A stretch of DNA of 25,870 nt. It comes from a virus. The notes beneath the pieces are model-generated. The model searched no databases and was not told the origin of the DNA. It saw only the letters and a list, made by a program, of their open reading frames with translations. This document shows, piece by piece, positions 924-25,308 of this stretch. Numbering within the stretch: the stretch's first letter is position 1; every line of letters starts with the position of its first letter. The DNA lies in IMG/VR virus record IMGVR_UViG_3300007640_000204, positions 1 through 25,870 of that record, one strand, 5' to 3'. Made by a program: the position numbers and the translations under genes.

Positions 924-1335
924 GACTTGAACGAATTCGCAACTGTTCAACTTTGCATGCTTTGTCATAATAGCGCGCCAAATGAATGTATTCTTGGACA
1001 GACATTGAACGACGAATTCGCGCCCGTCGTTCGACGTCAAACGCAAGTCCTTGCCTTTCTTCTTCAAGATGAATTCCGAAGCGAAACTGTTGTCCATGGT
1101 CGAAGATATTGCAACGCGCGCACTGGACGCGACAATTGTCAACGTCGAAGCGCGTGTTTCTGTGTTTGCGACTTTGAAAATGCCCGCAATACAATTGACT
1201 CCAATGCGCTTCTTTGCCGCATGTGTAACAAGCAGCAATGCCGTCTTTGTTCGCGTACTTCATGCGAATGAAGTTCGAAAAGACTTTGTCCAAATTCTGC
1301 AACAGTTTCTTTTTGCTTGCTGTCTTTTTCACCAT
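916..1335 (-). CDS. NinG/Rap-like recombination nuclease, copy 1
   Basis: A 139-aa protein of the NinG (lambda Rap) family, structure-specific endonucleases that act on recombination intermediates such as D-loops and Holliday junctions. It shows the family layout: a basic N-terminus with LDKVFSNFIRMKYA, a CYTC zinc pair, CGHF, then TRFD and VQCARCN carrying the second cysteine pair. The ATG overlaps the end of the small terminase gene by 7 nt. A second, divergent member lies at 3333-3713. The position between terminase and methyltransferase is unusual for a recombination gene. Confidence 0.8.
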   Translation of the reverse strand: MVKKTASKKKLLQNLDKVFSNFIRMKYANKDGIAACYTCGKEAHWSQLYCGHFQSRKHRNTRFDVDNCRVQCARCNIFDHGQQFRFGIHLEEERQGLAFDVERRARIRRSMSVQEYIHLARYYDKACKVEQLRIRSSHE

Positions 1336-1649
1336 GTCCCAAGCAGTGTTTTGCCGTCTTCTTGTGCAACGTGTTCAACGTAACCGCGTCGACGTCCTTT
1401 CGTTTTCAAAAAGAAGATAATTGCAGACGCGCTTCCGCCCTTCATTTGTTTGAACAGTTGACTTTCCGCATAATCCAAAGCGACTTCTTCAATGTCTTGA
1501 ACTGCTGCTGCAAATGACGCGTCTGTTTCAAGCCAACCGTAAAAAGTCGTCCGACCAACCTGCGCTTCTTTGCATGCAGTCGTGACAATTCCCAAAGACG
1601 CTTCAAGCGCTTTCAATACCCTTTTTTTTGACTGTTCAGTTTTGTTCAT
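1329..1649 (-). CDS. terS: Terminase small subunit-like protein
   Basis: A 106-aa protein resembling the phBC6A51-type small terminases, which recognise phage DNA and recruit the large subunit for packaging. The N-terminal third holds a helix-turn-helix (ACKEAQVGRTTFYGWLETD) followed by the family's helix with DYAESQLFKQM and the ending AIIFFLKTKGRRRGY. The ATG forms an ATGA overlap with the GNAT frame upstream. An A8 run lies in codons 7-9. The large subunit is not in the window and may lie just past position 1. Confidence 0.75.
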   Translation of the reverse strand: MNKTEQSKKRVLKALEASLGIVTTACKEAQVGRTTFYGWLETDASFAAAVQDIEEVALDYAESQLFKQMKGGSASAIIFFLKTKGRRRGYVEHVAQEDGKTLLGTW

Positions 1650-2146
1650 TTTCCCACATATTCAAATGACCATGCACGAATTCCCGCTTCGCGAAAACCG
1701 CTTTGACGAATGCCCTTCCCGCGCTGCAATTGTCCAAACGTTCGAATTGTTTTCACGCGCACCCAATTTGGGTTCTTTTGAAGCATTTTGAACACTGGAA
1801 CTGCGCTGAATTTTCCCATGATTCGAAAGCCGTGTTCCTGCTTCATGTGTCTTGACGTCGCTTCGATAAGTCGTCCGCCCAAACCAAGTCCTTGAAAGTC
1901 TGGGTGAATTACAGTCCTGTTGAAGTGAAAAATGGGCGTCTTGCCTTTGCGCGTCGGGACGTAATTTGCAAAGCATTGAAATCCGACTTGTCGCCCGTCG
2001 TGAAATAGCCCGAAGCAGTACAATTTGCCGCCTGGCAATTTGTCCGTTAAATAGTGATATTTTGAAAAATATTTCCACGTTTTCGTTGTGACGGGTCGAA
2101 TTTCGAATTCCAGTTTTTCTTGTCGTTTTTTTTTTCGTCGCAGTTG
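1646..2146 (-). CDS. GNAT acyltransferase domain, probably the C-terminal half of an ABC-GNAT protein
   Basis: A GNAT fold with the acyl-CoA-binding motif A (PDFQGLGLGGRL) preceded by FHFNRTVIH. The frame has no ATG before the domain: it opens after a TGA at 2147-2149 and reads through the A10 tract as KKRQEKLEFEIRPV, then TWKYFSKYHYLTDKL, which looks like the true start of the domain. The only in-window start near its conserved part is TTG at 2036-2038, which would cut off this region. The natural reading is that ribosomes arrive from the ABC frame by a -1 shift at the A10 tract. GNAT proteins move acyl groups from CoA; phage Mu Mom, which modifies adenine, has the same fold. The substrate here is unknown. 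Confidence 0.75.
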   Translation of the reverse strand, partial: QLRRKKKRQEKLEFEIRPVTTKTWKYFSKYHYLTDKLPGGKLYCFGLFHDGRQVGFQCFANYVPTRKGKTPIFHFNRTVIHPDFQGLGLGGRLIEATSRHMKQEHGFRIMGKFSAVPVFKMLQKNPNWVRVKTIRTFGQLQRGKGIRQSGFREAGIRAWSFEYVGK

Positions 2147-2757
2147 TCAAAACGCGCTTCGTTGCAGTCAATAACCCAAGACGGGTTTACCCATTCCAAA
2201 ATGTCGTAATGACAAGAACACAAAACGACGCGTTTCTTGTTTCGTCGTGCGTACTTCTGCAAAGCGTGTGACATGACTTTTGCGACTTGTCTGTCCACGA
2301 CTGAAGTCCATTCGTCAATGACTGTCAAGTCCGCGTTGTGCGTCATTTGCAAAACTGCTTCGGCGCGTGCGCGTTGTCCGTTGGAAAGTGTGTACATGGG
2401 GCGCACCCAACAAACAACTGAAGTCAGTCCAATTCCCGACAAAAGCGCAGCGCATTCGTCATATGTCAATGAAGTCGGAAGTTGGTCAATGACTGGACGC
2501 GACAAGTCTGCTTGAAATTGAAAACAGTCTTCTCCAAACATGTGTTTTGCAAGCGTTGTTTTCCCGCTTCCTGAAGCGCCCAAAATGACTCCAATTGTCC
2601 AGTCTTCGTTCGGTTCAATCTTGTCAATTTGCAAGTCGTGAATTGACTTCTTGTGAATGTCAATGTCCAACGAATCGCATGCAAGTTTGGTTCGAAAACT
2701 TGTCGGAATTTCGCTTTGCAAGCGAACGTGAATTTTCTTTTTCAGCGTCGTTGTCAT
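2047..2757 (-). CDS. Soluble ABC-type ATPase
   Basis: A 236-aa ABC ATPase without membrane segments. Visible are Walker A (GASGSGKTTL, residues 60-69), a signature LSNGQ (124-128), Walker B with the catalytic glutamate (LTVIDEW, 144-150), a D-loop (SVVD) and the H-loop histidine (SCHYD, H183). The ATG at 2755-2757 forms an ATGA overlap with the ParB-like gene; an upstream start at 2805 is less likely. In its own frame the protein ends in a lysine/asparagine-rich tail after residue 210 that looks like out-of-frame coding. A -1 shift at 2126-2135 would give a fusion of about 370 aa with the GNAT domain, like the ABC-acetyltransferase proteins grouped in COG2401. Confidence 0.85.
   Translation of the reverse strand: MTTTLKKKIHVRLQSEIPTSFRTKLACDSLDIDIHKKSIHDLQIDKIEPNEDWTIGVILGASGSGKTTLAKHMFGEDCFQFQADLSRPVIDQLPTSLTYDECAALLSGIGLTSVVCWVRPMYTLSNGQRARAEAVLQMTHNADLTVIDEWTSVVDRQVAKVMSHALQKYARRNKKRVVLCSCHYDILEWVNPSWVIDCNEARFDNCDEKKNDKKNWNSKFDPSQRKRGNIFQNITI
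2126..2135 (-). other. A10 slippery tract joining ABC and GNAT frames
   Basis: On the coding strand ten adenines lie in the ABC frame as GAA AAA AAA AAC. A -1 slip continues as AAA CGA CAA GAA and enters the GNAT frame at its natural beginning. The three frames were compared by hand, and only the -1 frame gives a sensible GNAT N-terminus. It may be programmed frameshifting, a contingency homopolymer that varies in the population, or an indel error in the assembly. Confidence 0.7.
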
Positions 2758-3278
2758 TGCACAATTTTCACTGTCAATCCTTCTTGCGTCAATTTCTCGA
2801 ACCATTCATTTGCTTGACTTTCGTCGTCAACTTCGAACGACAAAAACCAACGCCCTGAAAAGTCGTCCGCTTCGGGCGTTACGTCTTCAGCCGTCGGTGC
2901 GTCTTCGTCGTTGTCTTGCCATACGTCAAGCCCCCATTCGTCAAGTTCTGCTGCGTCCCATTCGTTCGCAAGAATGTCAAAGTCCCACGAACCAAAAGCA
3001 ACATTGTCCTTCACAATGAATTCACGCTGCTTTGCTTCTTCCCACGTCGCAACGTAAACGGGAATTTTCTCCAACTTCAATTCTTGCGCCGCTTTCAAAC
3101 GCATGTTTCCACCAAGAACAACGTTGTCAGGATTGACGACAACAGGACGCGCTTCAAGCATTTCAGGAAAGTCGCGCAAAGACTGTTTCAATTTCTTGAA
3201 AGCCGCTTTGTCAATCGTGCGCGGGTTGTCTTCATTTTGTCGCAAGTCTGCGACGCGTTTGCTTGCAAATTTTCCCAT
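2754..3278 (-). CDS. ParB/sulfiredoxin-fold protein (ParB-like nuclease domain)
   Basis: A 174-aa protein with the N-terminal ParB-like domain: NEDNPRTID, a helix, then the signature VVLGGNMRLKAAQELKL. The following VKDNVAFGSWDFDILANEWD is typical of phage versions, which commonly accompany DNA modification genes and lack the partition-type HTH. The C-terminal third is strongly acidic (DNDEDAPTAEDVTPEADD) and ends in a small compact segment. The ATG at 3278 is preferred over a TTG at 3296. It is translationally coupled to the ABC ATPase through an ATGA overlap, which suggests that the two proteins act together. Confidence 0.8.
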   Translation of the reverse strand: MGKFASKRVADLRQNEDNPRTIDKAAFKKLKQSLRDFPEMLEARPVVVNPDNVVLGGNMRLKAAQELKLEKIPVYVATWEEAKQREFIVKDNVAFGSWDFDILANEWDAAELDEWGLDVWQDNDEDAPTAEDVTPEADDFSGRWFLSFEVDDESQANEWFEKLTQEGLTVKIVQ

Positions 3279-3332
3279 TCTTTTGTGTCTTGACAAGAAT
3301 TTTGCCGAAGATACAAAAACGAAGTCCCAACT

Positions 3333-3713
3333 TCAAAGTTGCTTCAGTCGGGACTGGTAAATTTCAATTTTCGTTTGAATGTGCAAGTCCGTCCAAATTG
3401 CAATTCGCTTTGAACGTTCGCGCAAATGTTCAGCAGTGCCCATTCCAAAAACAGCGTCCAAATTGCGCGCAAATTCTTCACGCATTCCATTCTTGTGTCT
3501 GTTGCATTTTCGACACTGCGGCTGAACGTTCTTCATGTCAAAACGTGTCGACATGCACGCGCGCGGCATGAAATGTCCCGCGTCCATTTCGTCCCAAAAT
3601 TCCATTCGCGAACATGTGAAACATTCAGTTCGCCCTGAAAAGTCTGCGTGACGTCTTCGAACGTATTCTGAAAACACTTTGTCAAGTTTCCGAATTGCTG
3701 CTTGTGTCGCCAT
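3333..3713 (-). CDS. NinG/Rap-like recombination nuclease, copy 2
   Basis: A 126-aa NinG-family protein sharing with copy 1 the motifs LDKVFS, C-x2-C (CFTC), GHF, TRFD and QCRKCN, with little similarity elsewhere. It is probably a zinc-containing endonuclease acting on branched recombination intermediates. It starts 32 nt inside the end of the preceding gene and is followed by the ParB-like gene after 54 nt. This place, just behind the replication genes, is the expected one for NinG; copy 1 is the odd one. Confidence 0.8.
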   Translation of the reverse strand: MATQAAIRKLDKVFSEYVRRRHADFSGRTECFTCSRMEFWDEMDAGHFMPRACMSTRFDMKNVQPQCRKCNRHKNGMREEFARNLDAVFGMGTAEHLRERSKRIAIWTDLHIQTKIEIYQSRLKQL

Positions 3714-7873: not shown

Positions 7874-7903
7874 CAAATATATGGTGCCTAATTCAAACGG
7901 CAA
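7874..7903 (-). promoter_or_regulatory. Bacteroidota-type promoter M3 with dyad
   Basis: Minus strand: TTG (7901-7903), 19 nt, TATATTTG (7874-7881), a perfect TANNTTTG box. A perfect dyad TTTGACT-N-AGTCAAA at 7863-7877 overlaps the box and the likely start of transcription. It drives the gene at 7843. Confidence 0.85.
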
Positions 7904-8576: not shown

Positions 8577-8606
8577 CAAAGATATGTCGCCTAATTCAAA
8601 CGGCAA
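8577..8606 (-). promoter_or_regulatory. Bacteroidota-type promoter M2 with dyad
   Basis: Minus strand: TTG (8604-8606), 19 nt, TATCTTTG (8577-8584). The dyad TTTGAC-N3-GTCAAA at 8566-8580 overlaps the box. It drives the genes at 8546 and 8321. Confidence 0.85.
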
Positions 8607-9517: not shown

Positions 9518-9547
9518 CAAAGATATGGTGAACATTCGCTTTGGCAA
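9518..9547 (-). promoter_or_regulatory. Bacteroidota-type promoter M1
   Basis: Minus strand: TTG (9545-9547), 19 nt, TATCTTTG (9518-9525). A weaker dyad TTTGA-N4-TCAAA at 9508-9521 overlaps the box. The leader is A-rich with no Shine-Dalgarno sequence. Confidence 0.85.
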
Positions 9548-15653: not shown

Positions 15654-18593
15654 TTATCCGTGAATTCGTTTGAAGTCGTAGTTTGAACGACGTGTTGAAA
15701 GCAGAATGTCCTGTCCGTCAATTCGCCCGACAACTTCGACTTGTTGTGCAGTGTTGTTTCCGTTAACCATCGAAATAAATTGTCCCATTCTTTCAAACGG
15801 AATGATTGCTTCCTTTCCGCTTGGGTTGTCACCAAGCAAGGACAATGTCGGTCCCGTAACCATGCCGCCCGTTGCAAACGCAGGGACGTTTCCATCCATT
15901 TCGTCTGCTTTCTTTTGAAAGCCAACGCGCACTGCTGTTCCAAGTCCAACCAATGCAATACCCGCTGCAATTGCAACTGCGGGGTTCAACGACAACAATG
16001 CTGCTTTCACTGCTGCAATAACGTTTCCAAATCCAATTGCCATTACGCCCGTTTCAATTGCAAGTTTTCCAAATGTCATGAGCAAATTTCCAACGATGTT
16101 TCCAAACGCGCCCACAACGTCGCCCATGCTTGCCGCACCAATTGCAAAATTTCCTATCAATTCACCCAAAGCAACAGCAGTTTCCGCAGTTGTGTTTTGC
16201 AGTATTGTTTTGATTTTTTCGCCCATGTCGGCGACTTTGTCCGTCACTTCTTCCGTTGCTTCTCCGACTTGGGTTCCCGTGTTTTCAAGGATAAACAATA
16301 GTTCCCCAACGCTTGCAGTTGCAGCGTCAAAATTCATTCCCACACTTTCGTACAAACTTGAAATGGCGTCCGTCTGTTTCTTCAGACTGTCTTCAACTTT
16401 CTTCAGCGCTTTTGCTGCATTTTCCGCTTGTTCTGCTTGTGCTTTGTATTCGTTCGCAAGGTCTGTTTGTCCAAGCGCAAACGCTGCTTTTGCCGCGTCG
16501 CCATACGCTTCGGCAAGCGCTTGTTGTTTCTTCAGTTCGTTTTCGTCAATGAACTGTTCTTGCGCAATGTCTGCAAGCGCGTCTGCAAGGTCGTCCGCCA
16601 AATCTTTGTTTGCTTGCAAAGACTCTGCATTTTCCCGTGCTGCGCGTGCTTGTCGAATGTATTCTTGCGCCAAATCTTGCTTTCCAATTTCAGCCGCATT
16701 TTTCGCCGCGTTTTCATACGCGTCCGCCAATTCTTCTTGTTTTCGAATTGCGTCGGGTGAAATGCTTTGTGAAATATCAATGTCAGACAATGCTGCCTGC
16801 AATTTTTCCTGCATTTCTGCAACTGCTGCACTGTATTCTTCACCCGCAATTGCGTCTGCAACTTTCTTTGCCGCTTTCTTTGCGTCTTTTTCGATTCTTG
16901 ACAAGACTTCACTTGTCGCCAGTTCTTCAGCAGTTTGTCCGAACGTCACAAAACCTTCGTCAATTTGCGCTTGAATTTCCTTCGTTCGTTTTGCAATTTC
17001 TTGAACGATGCTGCGCGGAATAAGTTCGTCCGCCATTCGCGCAAATCCTGCTTCGCCCGCTGCGAAATACGTTGACGCAGATTCTCCACCAAAAACTTCT
17101 TCTTGCGTCTTGCGCAAAGCGTCCAATTCGTTTATTCGACGCAAAATTTCCGCGCTGTCAAGCGTTTCAAGATTTTCAAAAACTTGTTCTTGCGAAGCAA
17201 AAGCCGCTTTCAATTTCAGCCCTTGTTGCTTCAAGTCTTCAACTTCTTTTTGCGCACGTCGAACTTTATTGACGAACGACGTAATTCCCGCAACCATGAA
17301 CGCAAACGGAATTGCTTTCATTGCGTTTGAAAACACGCGCATTTTTCCCGCAGCAATTGCAGCAGTATTTCCTGCCGCAGTGTTTGCTGCTGCAAGCGCT
17401 TCAGTCGCGCCCGCTGCAACAAATGCTTTCTGTCCAACGCGCAAATAAACCGCGCCCAAATTCGCTTTCAACGTAATAAGTTGCCCCACAATTAACAGCA
17501 ACGGACCAATTGCGGCGGCAAGTCCAGCAATGACAAGAACAAACTTCTGTCCTTCGGGCGTCATTTCGGTAAACGCGTTCGCCATGTCAGAAATGGTTTC
17601 CGTCATGGAAATGACAATGGGCGCAAGCGCTTCACCAATTGCAATGTTCATTCCTTCAATTGCAGACTGCATTCGCAACATTGCTCCTTTTGTCGTGTCG
17701 TTCATGACGTCTGCCATGCCCTTTGCAGCGCCGTCTGCTTCTTTCAACGCAGTCGTCAATTCGTCAACTTTGGGCGCGTTGTCGCCCAAGACAAGCAACG
17801 CAGTTTGCGCACGACGCCCGACTTCATCGAAAGCAGCGTCCAAAGTCAGTCCTTCTTCAGCAAGCGCAGCAAGACGTTCCTGCACGTTGCCCCCGCCCGA
17901 AGCAAGTTGTTGGAATATCATTCGCAACGAAGTCCCCGCTTGCGAACCTTTGATTCCCGAATTTGCAAGCGCACCAAGCATTGCAGTCGTTTCTTCAATC
18001 GAAACTCCAGCCGCTTTTGCAACTGGTGCAACGTACTTCATGGCGTCTTGGAATGAAGACATGTCAAGCGCGGACGAACTGAAACTTTTCGCCATGACGT
18101 CCGTCACATGCGTCAATTCGGACGCTTCAAGTCCAAATCCGCGCAGCGTTGAACCTGCAACTTCTGCTGCTTGCGCAAGGTCGCTTCCCGTCGCTTGCGC
18201 CAAATACAAAGTGGCTTCAGTCGTCTTTTCAATTTCTGCTGCTGAAAAACCCAATTTGGAATATTCCAATTGCAAGTCCGCGACTTGCGAAGCAGTGAAG
18301 ACTGTGGAACGTCCAAGCGCTTTTGCGCTTTCTGACAAGCGTGCAAATTCAGCGTCTGTTGCTCCACTGACTGCTTTCACCGACGCCATGGACTGTTCGA
18401 AGTTTGCAAACGTTCGAACTGCGTTTGCGCCCATTGCAAGCAGCGGCGCAGTAACTGCTGCGGACATGTTTCGTCCGACTTTTGTGAAGTCTGCGGACAT
18501 TTTGCGCAGACGCTTTTGCGAATTACCAAGCGCCCTGTCAAGTTGCGTTGTATCCGCTCCAAAGATGATGTTAAGTGCCGCGCTCCGTGCCAT
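15654..18593 (-). CDS. Tail tape measure protein
   Basis: A 979-aa protein that sets tail length and passes into the cell with the DNA. The N-terminal 400 residues match the PhageMin_Tail type (FADFTKVGRNMSAAVTAPLL-like start, FEQSMASVKAVSGATDAEF, LALSGIKGSQAGTSLRMIF-like segment near residue 215). Long Ala/Glu/Lys-rich coiled coils follow (residues ~440-700), then hydrophobic helices near residues 790-890 (VMAIGFGNVIAAVKAALLSL, AVAIAAGIALVGLG). The gene overlaps the end of the tail chaperone extension by 23 nt, the canonical order. Long open frames on the opposite strand here are antisense shadows. Confidence 0.95.
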   Translation of the reverse strand: MARSAALNIIFGADTTQLDRALGNSQKRLRKMSADFTKVGRNMSAAVTAPLLAMGANAVRTFANFEQSMASVKAVSGATDAEFARLSESAKALGRSTVFTASQVADLQLEYSKLGFSAAEIEKTTEATLYLAQATGSDLAQAAEVAGSTLRGFGLEASELTHVTDVMAKSFSSSALDMSSFQDAMKYVAPVAKAAGVSIEETTAMLGALANSGIKGSQAGTSLRMIFQQLASGGGNVQERLAALAEEGLTLDAAFDEVGRRAQTALLVLGDNAPKVDELTTALKEADGAAKGMADVMNDTTKGAMLRMQSAIEGMNIAIGEALAPIVISMTETISDMANAFTEMTPEGQKFVLVIAGLAAAIGPLLLIVGQLITLKANLGAVYLRVGQKAFVAAGATEALAAANTAAGNTAAIAAGKMRVFSNAMKAIPFAFMVAGITSFVNKVRRAQKEVEDLKQQGLKLKAAFASQEQVFENLETLDSAEILRRINELDALRKTQEEVFGGESASTYFAAGEAGFARMADELIPRSIVQEIAKRTKEIQAQIDEGFVTFGQTAEELATSEVLSRIEKDAKKAAKKVADAIAGEEYSAAVAEMQEKLQAALSDIDISQSISPDAIRKQEELADAYENAAKNAAEIGKQDLAQEYIRQARAARENAESLQANKDLADDLADALADIAQEQFIDENELKKQQALAEAYGDAAKAAFALGQTDLANEYKAQAEQAENAAKALKKVEDSLKKQTDAISSLYESVGMNFDAATASVGELLFILENTGTQVGEATEEVTDKVADMGEKIKTILQNTTAETAVALGELIGNFAIGAASMGDVVGAFGNIVGNLLMTFGKLAIETGVMAIGFGNVIAAVKAALLSLNPAVAIAAGIALVGLGTAVRVGFQKKADEMDGNVPAFATGGMVTGPTLSLLGDNPSGKEAIIPFERMGQFISMVNGNNTAQQVEVVGRIDGQDILLSTRRSNYDFKRIHG

Positions 18594-18948
18594 TGTTTAT
18601 TTCATTTTGCCATGTCGAAAATAGCGCAATTTCACGCGCTGAAATTTTCGCTGCTGGTGCTTGACGTTTGCGCTTCTGCGCGTATGGGTTGAACGCTTCA
18701 AAACTTTGTGCGTGTTCTTTCTTCACGTTCACATTGTGCAACATGGCAAGAATGTGCGAAGTCTGCAACCATTGCAATTCGTCCCGCGTTTCAAGCGCTT
18801 GAACGCAACAACGCGCTTCGACAAACGACAAACGCCAAAATTGTTCAGCGTCGACGCCCGCACGAAGCGCGTTCAGATAAAACTTGCGAAGCGTTATTTT
18901 TTCGCCCGCGTCGTCGTTCTTTTCGTTGTCGTCGCTTGCTTTTTTTTT
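18571..18948 (-). CDS. Tail assembly chaperone, T extension (reached by -1 frameshift)
   Basis: The frame after the A9 tract encodes about 125 residues (ASDDNEKNDDAGEKITLRKFYL... to NNGTERGT) including FWRLSFVEARCCVQALETRDE. It has no good start of its own and is read as the C-terminal part of a fusion with the upstream chaperone (about 229 aa in all), like lambda gpGT. The T part is thought to bind the tape measure, encoded next. Confidence 0.8.
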   Translation of the reverse strand, partial: KKKASDDNEKNDDAGEKITLRKFYLNALRAGVDAEQFWRLSFVEARCCVQALETRDELQWLQTSHILAMLHNVNVKKEHAQSFEAFNPYAQKRKRQAPAAKISAREIALFSTWQNEINNGTERGT

Positions 18949-19259
18949 GCGTCGTCTTCTTCGTCGCCCATTGTCGCCAATATTTTGGGCGTCAAGTCCT
19001 GCCAATTACATGAACCAAGCAAAGCGTTGAATTTGTTTCTTGACATTTCGGGTTCAATATCTTCAGCCCAACAAGCAACTTTCACGCCATGCCACAAAAG
19101 AAGTGGCATGACGCGAAGTGGTTGCTTTTGCAGTCCTTCAAATATTTCGTGCAATTCAAGTCCGCTTTCTTCAATGACTTCACCAAGTGTCGTCAAGTTC
19201 AGCAAACATTTTTGCTTTTTCCCGTTCAGGTCAAATTCAAATTCACCGCCAAATTTCAT
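18894..19259 (-). CDS. Tail assembly chaperone, G part
   Basis: A 121-aa protein placed between the major tail protein and the tape measure, where chaperones of the lambda gpG type lie. The N-terminal ~95 residues are structured (FEFDLNGKKQKCLLNLTTL, then GLQKQPLRVMPLLLWHGVKV). After the slippery tract the zero-frame ending is low-complexity (QATTTKRTTTRAKK), typical for the unshifted product. The family keeps the tape measure soluble during tail assembly. Confidence 0.8.
   Translation of the reverse strand: MKFGGEFEFDLNGKKQKCLLNLTTLGEVIEESGLELHEIFEGLQKQPLRVMPLLLWHGVKVACWAEDIEPEMSRNKFNALLGSCNWQDLTPKILATMGDEEDDAKKKQATTTKRTTTRAKK
18940..18948 (-). other. A9 slippery site for -1 frameshift (tail chaperones)
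   Basis: On the coding strand the zero frame reads GCA AAA AAA AAG. This contains A AAA AAG, the slippery heptamer also used in E. coli dnaX. A -1 slip continues as AAA GCA AGC GAC into the T frame. A position between major tail protein and tape measure is exactly where such sites occur in many phages. Confidence 0.85.
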
Positions 19260-22361: not shown

Positions 22362-22478
22362 GTCATTTTGCTTTTTGCGAAGATATTCCACGAATTTTTT
22401 TGGGTTAAGCCAACGCACACCAACCTTGCGTTTCCCGACTTCCAGCAAACTTTTCTTCAATTTTCTTGCATTTAGTCC

Positions 22479-22508
22479 TTGCCGTTCGGTCTTCCCACCA
22501 TATTATTG
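22479..22508 (+). promoter_or_regulatory. Bacteroidota-type promoter P1 (plus-strand class)
   Basis: TTG (22479-22481), 19 nt, TATTATTG (22501-22508). The -7 box deviates from TANNTTTG by one base, like the other two plus-strand promoters. The 22362-22478 stretch otherwise holds only the possible extension of the connector frame. Confidence 0.8.
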
Positions 22509-22537
22509 CAATGTCAAACAACGAAAAACAAACAGTC

Positions 22538-24473: not shown

Positions 24474-24517
24474 ACAAACGCGACCGAAGAAAAATGCAAA
24501 GTTTTTGACTTTTTCCA

Positions 24518-24547
24518 TTGCCGTTCGAAAATGTCACCGTAGTATTG
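24518..24547 (+). promoter_or_regulatory. Bacteroidota-type promoter P2 (plus-strand class)
   Basis: TTG (24518-24520), 19 nt, TAGTATTG (24540-24547). The leader TGTCAAACAACAACAAACAAAC is close to that of P1. Confidence 0.8.
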
Positions 24548-24582
24548 TCATGTCAAACAACAACAAACAAACATTTTCAGTC

Positions 24583-25213: not shown

Positions 25214-25242
25214 AGTTTTTTCAAGAAACTTGAATTTTTCCA

Positions 25243-25272
25243 TTGCCGTTTGAAATGTTCGCCATATTATTG
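25243..25272 (+). promoter_or_regulatory. Bacteroidota-type promoter P3 (plus-strand class)
   Basis: TTG (25243-25245), 19 nt, TATTATTG (25265-25272). The leader is made of repeated AAAC units (AAACAAACAAACAAACAAAC). Confidence 0.8.
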
Positions 25273-25308
25273 CAGCAGAAACAAACAAACAAACAAACAC
25301 TTTCTGTC

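Follow-up and report, generated by a model that had tools for sequence, protein, structure and literature searches.

Organization of the ABC-GNAT locus

The longest homopolymer of the window, by which we mean the whole stretch of viral DNA analysed (25,870 nucleotides), is a T10 run on the + strand, which reads as A10 on the - strand, the strand of the gene. As the original prediction stated, this run is present in the letters and lies exactly between an ABC ATPase, read in the 0 frame, and a GNAT domain, read in -1 (Table 1). The 0 frame across the run reads GAC GAA AAA AAA AAC GAC, and both heptamers A_AAA_AAA and A_AAA_AAC are found inside it.

Table 1. Positions and supporting evidence for features around the ABC-GNAT junction
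Feature	Position	Strand	Evidence or remark
A10 tract (putative slip site)	2126..2135	-	Letters read; run and -1 offset shared with relatives
ABC ATPase, 0 frame	2047..2757	-	Pfam ABC_tran, E 3e-7; phrog_11143 positions 3-197, E 8e-59
GNAT domain, -1 frame	1646..2134	-	Pfam GNAT families; AlphaFold2 model, pLDDT 89
TGA in -1 frame, 14 nt upstream of the run	2147..2149	-	Sequence
ParB-like gene, upstream	2754..3296	-	Stop overlaps ABC start ATG 2757 as ATGA
Terminase small subunit, downstream	1329..1649	-	ATG overlaps GNAT TGA as ATGA

The ABC ORF, which has a second in-frame ATG upstream at 2805, carries Walker A (GASGSGKT), signature (LSNGQ), Walker B (VIDEWTSVVD), and switch (SCHYD) motifs. 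Past the run, this frame encodes 25 residues unrelated to the fusion and stops at 2047, opposite the HYL motif of GNAT, in agreement with the earlier description of intact ATPase motifs followed by poor coding. The GNAT frame had been described as having no ATG; GTG and TTG are likewise absent ahead of its conserved YFSKYHYL motif, the first TTG being at 2038, and an internal start for GNAT was rejected because no start codon precedes the motif. Since the -1 frame is closed by a TGA shortly 5′ of the run, the GNAT frame cannot be reached from further upstream either. A single frame results only with 11 or 8 As (386 or 385 aa from ATG 2805), so that the earlier statement that nine or eleven As would restore one frame holds for eleven, while nine has to be replaced by eight.

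A first-order model, which predicts more long runs than actually occur, gives about 1.6-1.9 homopolymers of such length in the window from composition. Length alone does not make the run improbable; its precise position between the two domains and its reappearance in relatives do exceed chance. The break between the frames falls at position 197/198 of the phrog_11143 profile, which covers both halves as one protein and continues in the -1 frame with positions 198-351 (E 1.6e-18). The gene thus belongs to phrog_11143, an ABC ATPase followed by GNAT under one profile.

The gene order ParB, ABC-GNAT, terminase recurs in relatives, in some of which a formyltransferase gene is inserted. A formyltransferase-domain gene was observed directly 3′ of the GNAT half in several split relatives (L227:4156-4800, L238:3994-4662, and L173). 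In the window, two NinG/HNH-like genes (916-1335 and 3333-3713, - strand) flank the block of ParB, ABC-GNAT, and terminase small subunit. Elsewhere in the window, three TTGCC-N-TAnnTTTG elements (7874-7903, 8577-8606, and 9518-9547, - strand; 0.15 expected) lie upstream of small genes, two of them within a 79-nt repeat, and their resemblance to Bacteroidota promoters suggests a Bacteroidota host. In the right arm, small ORFs are preceded by copies of a 77-nt leader (22458-22534, 24497-24573, and 25222-25298, + strand).

The run and the -1 offset in relatives

When the joined protein served as query, the 80 viral loci obtained all read through the junction without a break, a ranking that hides split genes; the split sister lineage was missed by this query because its match falls in two pieces. 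The ABC half used alone recovered three loci, L088-L090, as the closest relatives, with about 71-74% identity to the window in ABC and 53% in GNAT. They carry A10 at the equal position with GNAT in -1, and their DNA context and base composition differ from those of the window. Over 4562 bp the three assemblies do not differ, and each has A10. L096 and a distant clade at about 40% identity also have A10 with GNAT in -1. No near-identical phage record was found for the window.

A gapped pattern that permitted other run lengths matched 11 contigs (7 distinct sequences, 70-100% DNA identity), every one with A10; a twelfth match was unrelated. Scanning for at least 8 As behind the CHYDILEW motif gave 15 contigs, all 15 with A10 and with the GNAT half in -1. 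Run length and direction of shift are fixed, while the codon phase of the run is 1 in the window, 2 in L088 and L096, and 0 in the distant clade. In the distant clade (7 distinct sequences), synonymous sites are near saturation (pS about 0.4-0.9) and dN/dS of the GNAT frame is 0.03-0.15 where it could be estimated, showing that this split clade is under strong purifying selection. Clade names are used here as mere labels for sets of loci, and sequences within a clade are not independent. The original prediction had turned to homologous ABC-GNAT proteins to see whether they are single frames. Most are, many of them with the same ten-base run, and L088-L090, L096, and the distant clade are split.

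These relatives bear on whether the gene is simply misread or broken. If the true run had 11 or 8 As, the window would hold an ordinary fusion gene, as most relatives do, but this is very improbable given that the sister lineage shows the equal run and offset in three assemblies and that L096 and the distant clade likewise show A10 with -1. A gene in decay, whose GNAT half was inactivated by an indel, would also present a single frameshift in an otherwise intact frame; this explanation is scarcely credible, as the GNAT frame is open to its stop with its conserved motifs retained, split relatives show the low dN/dS given above, and the split state has arisen recurrently. Neither a one-off error nor a dead gene is likely, because A10 and the -1 offset recur in close and distant relatives under purifying selection. 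Two other loci, L082 and L247, have frameshifts within the GNAT domain with no A run, which are probably errors or decay.

Out-of-frame forms were also present among 80 loci from bacterial genomes, of which 68 were continuous fusions and 9 were split by frame. GNAT is in -1 in Paenimyroides (A10), an Alistipes MAG (A10), Gilliamella (A9), a Dojkabacteria MAG (A9), and Tenacibaculum finnmarkense together with T. piscium (A11); a further Tenacibaculum locus, in which a stretch is duplicated, is +1 by position, and two loci have no long run. Since several of the bacterial loci come from cultured isolates, an artefact of metagenome assembly is argued against. A close match was found in only 1 of 397 further genomes of the Tenacibaculum family, so that no run-length series was available within that family.

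Phages of Streptococcus, Lactococcus (P335), Oenococcus, Enterococcus, and Thomasclavelia (L166, L170, L172, L165, L167, and L171) have ABC and GNAT annotated separately, with the GNAT frame in -1 to ABC and reaching upstream of its annotated start, which in P335 Orf25 is a TTG within the conserved RYHYL motif. These six loci lack a long run.

In-frame forms and the length of the run

The relatives gave 181 distinct junctions. In-frame fusions with no run of 7 or more made up 125 of them, so slippage is not required by every family member. Exactly T10 was found at the junction of 28 continuous or near-continuous genes, and A10 in frame in 2. In 22 of 29 T-run genes a -1 slip would lead to an immediate stop, a pattern to which amino-acid preference may contribute. 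In a further large sister clade, 73 of 80 loci have A10 in frame, behind which the -1 frame meets TAG or TAA. The 49 distinct genes of this kind use AAA, CAA, and AAT exclusively at the run, which from codon usage elsewhere has a chance of about 2e-14 if sequences are taken as independent, which the 49 genes are not fully. Separately, the hairpin and T10 at loci including L004, L012, and L043 resemble an intrinsic terminator that would separate the ABC from the GNAT half of a continuous gene.

When distinct junctions with A or T runs of at least 7 were pooled (n = 101), 91 runs had length 10, the others being 9 (five), 11 (three), 12 (one), and 7 (one), with none of 8. A quick FastTree tree, some of whose branches are long, places the window and L088 with 29 T-run genes and one gene that has A10 in frame; it shows at least 5 changes of the A-run/-1 state. 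Two properties that mark dnaX-like genes were found here, namely a slip-prone run conserved beyond chance at a fixed place, and a downstream frame that is under protein-level selection and has no start of its own.

Long homopolymers are prone to replication slippage and phase variation, and rare A9, A11, and A12 variants do occur, so that a change of run length in the DNA might switch the GNAT half on and off. We regard this as improbable: length 10 prevails in the pooled junctions, the run is identical in three assemblies, and the -1 state is kept over deep divergence. Of the three options that the original prediction offered, namely two products from one gene by slippage, a phase-variable run, or a misassembly, the first is supported by comparative evidence, in that the run and the -1 offset recur in sister and distant genomes whose synonymous sites are saturated, the length is nearly always 10, and in-frame mirror forms exist.

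RNA structure and the probable agent of the proposed slippage

In the clade with A10 in frame, only 1 nt separates the run from an 8-bp hairpin on its 5′ side, whose covariation is 0.256, compared to 0.115 when shuffled and no more than 0.088 for slid partners. A weaker hairpin stands at equal distance from the run in the T10 clade, the L114 clade has a weaker upstream hairpin than the large sister clade, and most members of the distant A10/-1 clade have an upstream hairpin of 5-7 bp that is individually non-significant. No significant upstream hairpin was found in the window (p 0.58) or in L088. On the 3′ side, no consistent signal of a conserved pseudoknot or stem loop was obtained in 15 loci, and the stimulatory 3′ stem-loop of ribosomal -1 frameshifting was thus not observed.

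A_AAA_AAA is a known kind of -1 ribosomal frameshift site. Since this heptamer is present in every A run (with A_AAA_AAC in addition in the window), slippage of the ribosome has to be considered as the maker of the fusion, and the shift is indeed always -1. The same phage also has A9 with A_AAA_AAG at a probable tail-chaperone overlap. On the other hand, the run is kept at 10, which exceeds the heptamer, whichever of the three codon phases it has; T10 forms occur as well, no consistent 3′ structure was seen, and hairpins lie 5′ of the run, 1 nt away. Programmed ribosomal frameshifting in place of RNA polymerase slippage is therefore a possible but rather doubtful explanation. The A9 just mentioned (18940-18948, - strand) was noted within the overlap of ORFs 18894-19259 and 18571-19005, the second in -1, just upstream of the tape measure gene, where the layout is probably that of a tail assembly chaperone frameshift; the PHROG comparison gave a single weak tail-protein match.

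A hairpin touching the run on its 5′ side and a run that matches the RNA-DNA hybrid in length (9-10 bp) are reported features of RNA polymerase slippage (PMC5009743). Because the run has this length and such a hairpin occurs in some clades of the family, we consider RNA polymerase roughly twice as likely as the ribosome to be the agent, a preference for transcriptional slippage that adds to the original prediction. Stem-loop-mediated transcriptional slippage is known from Roseiflexus IS630 (PMC5009743), where, as in the large sister clade, a nascent-RNA hairpin lies directly 5′ of the run; unlike here, the IS630 run is T5C5 with a one-base deletion, and the window has no clear hairpin.

The closest counterpart in design is dnaX (tau/gamma) of Thermus thermophilus and its reversed form of the Chlorobium type, in which a homopolymer of 9-10 bases within one gene lets an N-terminal ATPase be made with and without a C-terminal part (PMC5009743, PMC3711429). 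Slip runs of dnaX comprise 9 As or Ts (PMC5009743), a dnaX with A10 has been published as a case of presumed polymerase slippage (PMC3711429), and both orientations, with the long form in frame or made by slippage, are found in dnaX and apparently in the present family. In contrast to dnaX, the ABC-GNAT protein is unrelated and phage-encoded, has both A10 and T10 tracts, and its slippage is a prediction.

Predicted function of the two-domain protein

The AlphaFold2 model of the GNAT half has the GNAT fold and matches solved GNAT enzymes. Its likeness to Mom, the DNA modification enzyme of phage Mu, lies in the GNAT superfamily and is weak: Pfam PF25680, a model with no ABC half, gave 17.7 bits (E 0.003) in the window against a curated cutoff of 27.1, and matched 10 of 48 relatives at E<0.01. 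Membership in Mom was rejected, as the score is under the Pfam cutoff. GNAT coupled with an ABC ATPase, for example in Tenacibaculum phage pT24, has been predicted to acyl-modify a DNA base (PMC7824862). This coupled protein has the identical two-domain architecture of phrog_11143, but no mention of slippage or of two products was found in its description (PMC7824862). A literature search that covered few subscription papers likewise found no report of slippage in the ABC-GNAT family. The protein family is already known, and the putative slippage would be the new element.

Proposed mechanism and implications

It appears quite probable from the comparison of sequences that one coding sequence gives two proteins by programmed slippage at the ten-base run, and the slippage is probably on purpose, because the identical run recurs in distant relatives. 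A product of 236 aa, the ABC ATPase by itself, would result from standard expression. On some transcripts RNA polymerase would add one A to the run or drop two, and normal translation of such a transcript would give an ABC-GNAT fusion of about 370 aa. The same products would arise if the ribosome slipped on A_AAA_AAA or A_AAA_AAC, which may contribute. By analogy with tau/gamma, the short and long forms may cooperate in a mixed complex, as a phage ATPase-acyltransferase.

For the family as a whole, we lean toward the view that a phage gene family of very wide distribution sets its ratio of ABC-only to ABC-acyltransferase protein through slipping of RNA polymerase at a run kept at exactly ten bases. 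Its lineages would have switched repeatedly between two modes, one in which slippage makes the fusion (A10, -1) and one in which it shortens the product (in-frame A10 or T10), and in some of them a hairpin lies 1 nt ahead of the run.

To our knowledge, few bacterial or phage genes exploit polymerase slippage productively. If true, the family would be a recurring, phage-wide counterpart of dnaX for an enzyme of the DNA-modification type. The ABC-GNAT gene is common, yet it is annotated as two genes or looks broken, and the mirror forms of its junction permit natural comparisons. The predicted DNA-modifying ABC-GNAT enzyme would then be a mixture of short and long subunits, which would give a direct clue to its mechanism.
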